A DNA stretch of 64,000 nucleotides from Thecaphora thlaspeos (taxonomy: Eukaryota; Basidiomycota; Ustilaginomycetes; Urocystidales; Glomosporiaceae), in assembly GCA_900291925.1 (NCBI GenBank), contig UWYS01000003.1, positions 930,001 to 994,000 of the forward strand, given 5' to 3'. The position numbers and the translations under genes were made by a program. This document shows positions 59,101 to 62,100 of this stretch, in pieces. The notes beneath the pieces are model-generated. The model had not been told where the DNA came from and did no database searches. It saw nothing but the letters and a program-made list of their open reading frames with translations. Every line of letters starts with the position of its first letter. Positions within the stretch are counted from its first letter, which is position 1.

Positions 59101-62100
59101 GCGCCGTCAGCGACTGACTTCCACGCATTGTCTCCTTTCCCTTGGACAAAGCCTGAGATCGAAATCCAGTCGAAAGATGTATCCGACGGAACCGACGGCG
59201 TCTTGGCGCCCTCGACGAGCTCCTTGGCGACGCTGTCCCATACGCTGTGCAGCTCCGCATCGGCAGGCAACGTCTCAGCGTTGGACAAAAGGACGGGGAT
59301 GCCGACAGTCTTGTTGGCCGAACGCGGTGCCTTGACGCTCCCCGCCTCCATGGAAGCAAAAAGGACCAGGGCCTGCGCAAGTTCAAGGCATCCGGAGGAA
59401 ACCAAAGCAGCCAGAACGCCAACTCCGCGCGCGGCCAGGATCCTGGACTGCAGTCCGCAGCGCTTCAGCTGCTCCGCGATGGCCACCTGAGCGGTGAACG
59501 TATCCAGAAATGTTGAAGCAGGAACGCCGAGGGACTTTTGCGCCGACCTAATTAGCGCAACTGCGTCGGCCAGCGAAGGCCAGGTCTCGACGAGCTGGTC
59601 GAAGGTGGTAGCCGGAACGGTGGTGGCATTGAAGATGTAGCCGAGGGCCGGAGCGGCCTTTGCCTGCTCGAAGATCTCGGCCGCTTTCAACTTGGCGACT
59701 AGCTCCACTACGCTAGACGCAGAGAAGCAGAGGCGGAACGGATGCGCGATCCGCCTGACCGTCATTGTCGTGCTAAGGTCGCCCAGCGAGACGCCGTCAC
59801 CTTCGCACGAGAGCCAGTCAATATATCTCTGCCTGGTTTGCTCGAGACTTTTCGCCGTCTTCCCGGTCAACACGAAGGGGAAGGTGGTGCGGGCTTCGGG
59901 GCGCGCTGCGACAGGCTCGGGGATGGCTGGCGCCTTCTTCACCAGGATCACGGCGTTCTGCCTCTGGAGCGAGCGGTTACTGACGAGAATGGCGGCGGTG
60001 TTGCCCTTCGAGCCTGAGCTAGGCCGCTCGAGATCAGCAGTCTGATCGCGCAGGCTCAGCTTGCCACGTTCGATCCACTCGCGGGCTTCGGGTGCGAGCT
60101 CTTCAGGCTTGCAGTGCAGCGCAGCGGGGACCTTGCCGTGTTGTAGCATCAAGATTGCCTTGATGACGGACGCGATGCCGGACGCCGCTTCGCAGGCGCC
60201 GATGACCGGGCGGACCGAGCCGACCGAGATGGGCTGGGTCGCGCCGAAGCTCGAGACGATGGCGTCCAGCTCGGCCCGCTCACCCTCCACGGTGTGGTGG
60301 CCGCTGGCCTCCACGTGTACGACGTCCTCAGTCCGGACCCCAGCCTTCCTGCAGATCTGCTGGAACAGGTCTTTGAGCACCTCGGTATCGGTTGAGGAAG
60401 CGGCCGGGTTGAAAGAGGTTCCGGTCTCGGCAATGGTGGCGATGATGTTATCGCCTTCCGCTACGGCGTCAGAGAGGCGCTTGAGGAGCAGGACGCCGAC
60501 TCCGTCGCCGCGGACCGCGCCGTCGTTGGCGGAACAGAAGGTTCGGTTCTGGCCGCTGTGCGAGAGGAGGCCGTCCTTGTCCATCCCGATAAACATCTGC
60601 GGTTGCGTGATGAAGGTCACGCCGCCGGCCAGGGCGCTGTCGCACTGGTGGGCGCGGATGGCGTGAATGGCGTGCTCGATGGCAACCGTCGACGACGAGT
60701 CTCCAGTGTCGATCGAGTTGGACGGGCCTTCCCACTTATTGTTGTAGGAGATGGCGCCGGGCACAAAGGCCCTGATGTTGCCCGTGATGAAGTAGGAGCC
60801 GATGTTGCTGCTGGCGTTTTCTCGGTAGTCGTCCGATGAGGCGCCCAGGAAGCAGCCGATCCGCTTCGTGTCAAAGGTTGGGCAGACGTTTGGCACGTAG
60901 CCCGCCTGCTCGAGGGCCTCGTAACACGCCATCGCCATCATCCGGTGGCCCGGATCCTTCTGCTCGGCCTCCTTTGGGCTGATGTTGAACAAGCGGCAGT
61001 CGAACAGCTCGGGCCCCTCGATCGATCCCATGTGGCGGGCGAGCGTCTGGTTGCTACCGGTGCCGCGGTACCGGTCGATGTCGAAGCGGAATTTGGGGAT
61101 CTCGGCGATGGCGCTCTTCCCCGAGTTGAGCAGGTCCCAGTACTTCTCAGGCGTGTCGACGCCGCCAGCAAAGCGGCAGGCCATCGAGACGACGACAATC
61201 TCGTCGCAGTCCTGTGGCGGAATTGTTCTGGAGACGCTCGGGCCCGATGCGCTGCTGGAGGAGAGATCAACGACGGACACGTTCGGCGATTTGGCCGACT
61301 TGCGCATCTGACCCCACAGATCGCGCGCCAGCGCCGTCGAAAAGGCCGAGGCGACGACGGTGGTGGGGACCTGGCCCGCGTAGGCGACGACGCTCTTGGC
61401 GATGAGGTCCCAGCGGCAGACGTCGATCAGCATCATGTCGAGCGCCTGGTCGAGTATGGACACGGCCCCGGCACCGTCTCCGATGCAGATTGGCTGGCCG
61501 TGTTTGCTGGAAAGGACGGGGTACCTGGGCGCCTCGAGCAGGTCGAAGCGGATCTGCCTGTGCTTGATATCTTCGTGCACAGCGCACTTGATTTGAGTAC
61601 CTCGTGTAGTGGCATGGTAGCTGGAGTAGATGTGAAAAGGCGTAAATGACAGGCCGGCCTTGGGTGACGCTGGGCCCTGATGGTGCTCGACGAAATTGCT
61701 CAAGTACTCAGGAGGGCCCGAAACGGTCACGCTGCTGGCGGTCGTCACGGCGCTGACGCACAGCACCGACAAGTCGTCGAGGCGATGCAGCTCATTGAAT
61801 GCCGCAGTCCAGCCCTCCACCTGGGAGAGGTCGGCCCCGTTCACCCCAACGCTCCAGCTCTGCTGCGAGAGCGGCGCCAGAGGGTCTAGAAAGGGCTTAG
61901 CCGCCTGTTGCCCACGGAGGCCGACGAAAAAGGCCAGCCTGACCGCCTCGACGCCGTTTTGGATCATTTCCATCGGCTGATCCAGTCCAGAGCATGCCAG
62001 GGAGAGGGCAGACAGCACACCGGTGCAGTAGCCGGCGTAGACCTGTTCATCATCCGGGCATACGAGGCCGTCATCGCGGTCGAGGGCTGCGCAAAGATAC

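Follow-up and report, generated by a model that had tools for sequence, protein, structure and literature searches.

Why would a polyketide synthase (PKS) retain a ketosynthase (KS) domain that has lost all three of its catalytic residues? This question is raised by the single PKS gene on the minus strand of the window, a 64,000-nucleotide stretch of Thecaphora thlaspeos DNA (contig UWYS01000003.1; G000:C3:930001-994000 in our numbering). In the spliced translation, the Cys-His-His triad of the KS is replaced by Asp560, Ser692 and Ala728, at the very codons reported by an initial annotation of the window. The gene product is probably subunit A of a non-reducing type I PKS (NR-PKS) that needs two subunits, subunit B being encoded next door, the pseudo-KS of subunit A playing a part like that of the chain-length factor (CLF) in bacterial type II PKSs.

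The gene is composed of two exons, and the spliced protein has 2089 residues with zero internal stops. The initial annotation had described the whole 6-kb frame as open, in agreement with the list of open reading frames (minus-strand frame 56109-62120, 2003 codons). The features of the gene, in window positions, are as follows.

62176-62467, minus strand: PKS exon 1; start ATG at 62467-62465, SAT N-terminus; the splice is in frame, and the match to P. flocculosa protein P0001 spans the junction
62087-62175, minus strand: PKS intron, 89 bp, GT...AG
56109-62086, minus strand: PKS exon 2, through the stop codon; open frame, no stop in the spliced protein
61278-62467, minus strand: SAT domain, residues 1-367 (intron included); Pfam PF16073; motif GYCTG intact, Cys118 codon at 62027-62025
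59958-61202, minus strand: pseudo-ketosynthase, residues 393-807; Pfam PF00109/PF02801 and AlphaFold2 model
60699-60701, minus strand: Asp560 at the KS nucleophile position, DTGDSSS; spliced translation and alignment of relatives
60303-60305, minus strand: Ser692 at the HGTGT histidine position, ASGHHT; spliced translation and alignment of relatives
60210-60212, minus strand: Arg723 at the conserved KS lysine; K in 51/51 active rows, R in 23/23 rows that have lost the whole triad (fully dead rows)
60195-60197, minus strand: Ala728 at the NIGH histidine position, VIGACEAASG; spliced translation and alignment of relatives
58956-59957, minus strand: linker domain and MAT relic, residues 808-1141, GHSLG serine lost; no PF00698 match, motif column
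57879-58847, minus strand: product template (PT) domain, residues 1178-1500, His and Asp present; Pfam (PS-DH-type domain) and motif alignment
57456-57683, minus strand: ACP1, MGLDSL; Pfam PP-binding, profile and motif
56973-57194, minus strand: ACP2, LGLDSL; Pfam PP-binding, profile and motif
56109-56873, minus strand: thioesterase (TE), GGWSFGG, plus stop; Pfam and motif

The N- and C-terminal KS domains of subunit A score 220 and 75 bits in Pfam, and the columns of residues 560, 692 and 728 read C, H and H in 51/51 aligned active KS domains. The motifs are therefore alignable and the alignment is firm, as had been claimed. The identical Asp, Ser and Ala set is present in four relatives (P0001-P0004, from Pseudozyma flocculosa, Thecaphora frezii, an ENA record and Tilletia horrida), which makes a sequencing error very unlikely and supplies the orthologues that the initial annotation had proposed to look for. 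At the lost nucleophile, the replacement is always acidic (Glu in 18 and Asp in 5 of 23 rows). According to a review of type II PKSs (PMC12664062), the extending KS has a further conserved lysine besides the triad; this lysine, which precedes the NIGH motif, is Arg723 in subunit A.

Pfam places the domains of subunit A in the order SAT, KS, PT, ACP, ACP, TE, which is the fungal NR-PKS order. A Pfam search of the protein gives no match to the acyl transferase family PF00698, and the MAT serine, found within GHSLG in 27/27 partner-family rows and 17/17 reference rows, is lost. Canonical fungal NR-PKSs such as CTB1 and PksA share the SAT-KS-MAT-PT-ACP-TE order and the KS-MAT fold with subunit A, but in subunit A neither a Cys-His-His KS nor a MAT with GHSxG stands in the same chain; these catalytic residues are present in another chain. 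We therefore reject the possibility that the window PKS functions alone. Arg723, the MAT loss and the neighbouring PKS bearing the missing motifs all go beyond the initial annotation.

This second PKS gene lies on the opposite strand, beyond the right end of the window, and starts 3.3 kb upstream of the first.

G000:C3:995735-1001900, opposite strand, divergent: partner PKS, subunit B; exons C3:995735-1000413, 1000542-1000912 and 1001047-1001900; 1967 aa, no internal stop

The KS of subunit B has a complete Cys-His-His triad (DTACSSA, CHGTGT, ANVGH), and its MAT motif GHSLGE is intact. At the SAT nucleophile, subunit B reads GAVSG, versus GYCTG in subunit A. Pfam searches of most of exon 1 and the last exon match KS, MAT and TE, and neither SAT nor ACP; the PT domain is recognized through alignment. 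An ACP profile built from 109 segments, the window's own ACPs included, finds the two ACPs of subunit A (E = 2.6e-50) and no ACP over the whole of subunit B and all frames of the surrounding 20 kb (best E = 2.5). Judged by motif, neither PKS would be able to make a polyketide alone, and the pair has the full set.

A search of the 20.6-Mb assembly gives six KS matches: the window PKS, the partner PKS (C3:996887-997630), a fatty acid synthase on contig C5 and three thiolases. Other MAT matches fall in the fatty acid synthase region on C5 and, partially, in a 559-aa frame on C9. A PKS-type role was rejected for an ACP match at C3:1028619: the domains recognized in those frames are condensation, AMP-binding, PP-binding and reductase, the layout of LYS2.

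Protein searches yielded 33 relatives of subunit A, taken from the best 120 matches of each listing, and 26 of subunit B, which are the top fungal and unassigned matches with bacterial-looking rows left out; the listings are clustered at 90% identity, and absence from them is uninformative. The second histidine is lost in 34/34 A rows (window included). The nucleophile Cys is kept in 10 of these rows, is Asp or Glu in 23, and falls in a missing region in one. The rows keeping Cys come from Botryobasidium, Violaceomyces (P0006), Tilletia maclaganii, Parajaminaea and Geranomyces (three rows), together with three further rows. In the B family, Cys, His, His and the MAT serine are complete in all 27 rows, the neighbour included.

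Seventeen A/B pairs could be matched, from smuts, Tilletia, Botryobasidium and a chytrid. The window pair is joined by position, 12 pairs by contigs of equal size, which suggests but does not prove that the two genes share a contig, and four on species identity alone (P. flocculosa, Kalmanozyma, Geranomyces and Violaceomyces). Across these pairs, the KS triad is incomplete in 17/17 A subunits and complete in 17/17 B subunits; six of the A rows keep Cys and the first His and have lost the second His only. The split of KS, MAT and SAT is exact wherever the residues exist. No ACP motif is found in 12 of the 17 B proteins; the B protein of Geranomyces is a short model of 1673 aa, and its missing ACP and TE may reflect the gene model. 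In seven pairs (six from Ustilaginaceae and one from Testicularia), the PT histidine is lost in A but kept in B, which on these motifs takes the split of tasks between the subunits one step further.

The KS tree comprises 78 rows, leaving out P0029 (no nucleophile region), P0031 (297 residues) and five rows taken for near-duplicates (P0008, P0012, P0249, P0244 and P0132). The three catalytic columns stayed in the tree alignment. Each of the two families, A and B, is monophyletic in this tree (100/99). For the rooted tree, a further 13 rows were dropped; the outgroup is six bacterial modular KS rows, P0163, P0190 and P0172 having been discarded after they fell among fungal NR-PKSs. A and B are sister clades when rooted in this way (98/88), and the alternative that places A outside everything else is rejected (approximately unbiased test, p-AU 0.011). 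Among the KS-tree rows with letters at the positions concerned, one change on the tree suffices for each of the three losses: that of the second histidine covers the whole A family, and those of Cys and the first histidine one inner clade.

The A and B trees of the 17 pairs have 10 of 14 splits in common, as good a match being reached in 0/5000 relabellings, and the conflicting splits have a support of 86 or less. A and B KS distances are correlated (r = 0.91, 0/20000; within the 11 fully dead pairs, r = 0.97, 1/20000). Since shared species ancestry alone mirrors trees too, the mirrored trees are a sign that A and B were inherited together, not that they touch. Both A and B are nevertheless of differing subtypes in Tilletia horrida and T. 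maclaganii, as if the pair moved or was lost as a unit. On the phylogenetic evidence, A and B are sister paralogues inherited together. Both halves also occur outside the smut subphylum, in the chytrid genus Geranomyces (P0248-P0250, P0127) and the agaricomycete Botryobasidium (P0005, P0126); either the pair would be very old or it would have been transferred.

The pseudo-KS is well conserved. Between the window species and T. frezii, identity is 85% in the dead KS, 59% in the linker and MAT relic, 71% in SAT, 84% in PT, 87 and 84% in the ACPs, 80% in TE and 36-58% in the linkers. Against P. flocculosa, the corresponding values are 82% (KS), 59% (relic), 68% (SAT), 84% (PT), 88 and 81% (ACPs) and 81% (TE). 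The dead KS thus ranks second and third among the domains in these two comparisons, and first against the remoter P0003 (75%). In subunit B of the window species and P. flocculosa, the active KS is 90% identical, the SAT relic 64% and the TE 63%. Over all pairs, distances between dead KS domains are larger than those between the catalytic KS domains of subunit B by a mean factor of 1.33. The TE of subunit B (L008:947-1900), at 63% versus 81% for that of subunit A, may be decaying though its serine is kept.

The conserved positions themselves have shifted. Of 54 columns conserved to at least 95% in the 51 active KS domains, 23 persist in 90% or more of the 23 fully dead rows and 27 in fewer than half of them. 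Conversely, 32 columns (Arg723 and Ala728 included) are conserved to at least 95% in the dead rows and rare in active KS domains, though counts of this kind are inflated by the dead rows being mostly closely related Ustilaginaceae. We read this pattern as a changed but maintained function. With orthologues sharing the substitutions, the KS outranking the MAT relic and 32 dead-specific columns, the data support the initial view that this non-condensing KS has been selected for a structural or CLF-like role and is not decaying.

Structure modelling, likewise suggested at the outset, predicts that the dead KS keeps the KS-MAT fold. The AlphaFold2 model of residues 385-1130 has a mean predicted local distance difference test score (pLDDT) of 92, and its pseudo-KS and MAT relic align to the KS-MAT of CTB1 (VIA-align over the Foldseek top 1000); the entries 6fij and 8cg4 represent the KS-MAT fold of canonical fungal NR-PKSs.

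How could such a pair work? We infer that A and B form a physical heterodimer, in which their KS domains pair in the manner of KS and CLF. The SAT of subunit A would load a starter onto subunit A's ACP, the MAT of subunit B would charge that ACP with malonyl, and the KS of subunit B would extend the chain on it. The chain would be cyclized by a PT (that of A, B or both; PT motifs are present in both subunits here, and only in B in Ustilaginaceae) and released as a small aromatic acid by a TE, most likely that of A. The pseudo-KS would be retained as a dimerization partner and scaffold, perhaps shaping the chain-length pocket.

The bacterial type II KS/CLF is described in PMC12664062 as an obligate heterodimer of an active KS and an inactive one that lacks catalytic residues. 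The same combination, one KS without catalytic residues and one complete KS, is present in the window pair, and in all 17 matched pairs the triad is incomplete in one chain and complete in the other. As in KS/CLF, the two KS chains of the window pair are paralogues, and the analogy gains strength from the adjacent sister gene, whose KS is intact. Unlike the discrete type II proteins, A and B are each type I multidomain proteins of ~2000 aa that also divide SAT, MAT and ACP between them. The nucleophile position of CLF is Gln; in the A family, where the Cys is lost, it is Asp or Glu. We consider it somewhat more likely than not that a KS/CLF-like heterodimer arose in fungi within an iterative type I megasynthase, separately from that of bacteria. 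One duplication would have been followed by reciprocal loss of SAT, KS, MAT and ACP (and of PT in Ustilaginaceae) until only the pair was complete, the asymmetry of the dimer being fixed in the genes and the pair inherited, perhaps transferred, as a unit from chytrids to smuts.

Several points weigh against the two-subunit synthase. The A rows were hand-picked among high-ranking fungal or unassigned rows without PF00698, so that MAT loss among them is a selection effect; KS motifs played no part in the choice of 30 of the 33 rows, and P0029, P0031 and P0039 were added after their motifs were known. Only 17 of the 34 A rows are paired with a B (unpaired rows include Violaceomyces P0006, of the early type, and T. 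frezii P0002), and the Violaceomyces A and B are listed on contigs of unequal size. An ACP motif is still present in 5 of the 17 B proteins, and B there might work without A. The SAT column of Ustilaginaceae B is only loosely aligned at the B N-termini, and the SAT of subunit A may be dispensable, because some basidiomycete NR-PKSs function without SAT (PMC10401856). The input alignment of the AlphaFold2 model held active KS-MAT sequences, which may bias it to the canonical fold. PMC13208730 reports that the cluster of U. hordei and of M. antarcticus yielded homologues of pks2 alone, for which its authors blame contig edges. Finally, the sequence pattern is also expected from two interacting homodimers.

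In that alternative, A and B would each self-dimerize via their own KS, the ACPs of subunit A would visit the KS and MAT of subunit B in trans, and the pseudo-KS would be a homodimerization platform only. It accounts for the same reciprocal loss and co-inheritance, and the predicted retention of the KS fold is compatible with it. A homodimeric scaffold, however, has no obvious need for a KS that stays 82-85% identical and has gained 32 near-invariant columns, and U. maydis Pks3/Pks4 are called heterodimers in a review (PMC10098057). Neither point is decisive, and we regard the trans-acting homodimers as unlikely.

Much less probable still is that the altered KS decarboxylates malonyl-ACP to give an acetyl starter, as a KSQ loading domain does. 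KSQ domains resemble the KS of subunit A in having a substituted nucleophile within a KS fold, but they keep both histidines and their nucleophile is changed to Gln. In subunit A, both histidines and the lysine are lost; both histidines are gone in 23/23 fully dead rows and the second in 34/34 A rows, and the nucleophile is Asp here, the other fully dead rows having Glu or Asp. Subunit A also keeps a SAT motif for starter loading, and structural-match rank is silent on chemistry. We therefore reject this reading. A decaying pseudogene or a sequencing or assembly error, which the lost catalytic residues and MAT might suggest, is rejected as hardly credible given the open 2089-aa frame, the same residues in four other records, a KS better conserved than the linkers and MAT relic, intact SAT, PT, ACP and TE motifs, and a single tree change for each of the three residues.

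A heterodimeric A/B synthase has partial precedents in smut fungi. In U. maydis, UMAG_04105 is presumably pks3. AT is absent from UM04105 and its counterparts in U. hordei and S. reilianum (PMC5635595). The review cited above describes heterodimers of Pks3 and Pks4, from the U. maydis melanin cluster, that make orsellinic acid and triacetic acid lactone (PMC10098057). The melanin-associated pks1 and pks2 have been suggested to constitute jointly one complete synthase (PMC13208730). Thus AT-less smut PKSs (PMC5635595), two PKSs as one system (PMC13208730) and Pks3/Pks4 heterodimers (PMC10098057) are already in print. Like Pks3/Pks4 and Pks1/Pks2, the window pair consists of two clustered PKS genes, one of them without AT: they are adjacent and divergent, A without MAT and B with MAT.

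Among the Ustilaginaceae represented in the A and B families are S. reilianum, U. trichophora and P. hubeiensis. U. maydis proteins do not appear by name among the matches listed, and orthology to Pks1-4 is not established. Because PMC13208730 did not find homologues of pks3-5 in the 15 other genomes that it covered, the Ustilaginaceae rows are more likely counterparts of pks1/pks2. In the open literature searched, no report was seen of SAT, KS, MAT and ACP sites being lost reciprocally, of an origin as sister paralogues or of trees that mirror each other, and the text consulted on the U. maydis pairs makes no mention of a lost KS triad, SAT or ACP; the primary 2021 paper (Reyes-Fernandez et al., AEM 01510-20) may contain part of this.

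Iterative type I PKSs are usually regarded as homodimers with every domain in one chain. If our reading is true, the conserved A/B pair would be a PKS dimer whose asymmetry is natural and written in the genes. With it, one could ask directly which catalytic sites work in cis and which in trans, how catalysis is lost from a KS that keeps its fold, and whether a pseudo-KS sets chain length, and the two-PKS requirement reported for smut melanin pathways would find an explanation at the sequence level. It would also be a warning that AT-less PKS genes omitted from surveys, as in PMC5635595, may be half-enzymes.

The surroundings of the pair contain further genes. Within the window, the plus-strand frame 42273-48239 encodes a long protein with leucine-rich repeats at its C-terminus; it was rejected as a second PKS, as its Pfam match is to leucine-rich repeats only. 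Plus-strand 51839-54988 is an ABC transporter frame. About 9-14 kb past subunit B lie an FSH1-type serine hydrolase (C3:1010502-1011503; L014:502-1503) and a laccase-like multicopper oxidase (C3:1012981-1015749; L014:2981-5749), which are consistent with a cluster for a polymerized pigment; the laccase may polymerize the released acid into a pigment of the spore or wall. A minus-strand frame that by eye is reverse-transcriptase-like (C3:1004971-1007289; L008:4971-7289) separates the partner PKS from the laccase region.
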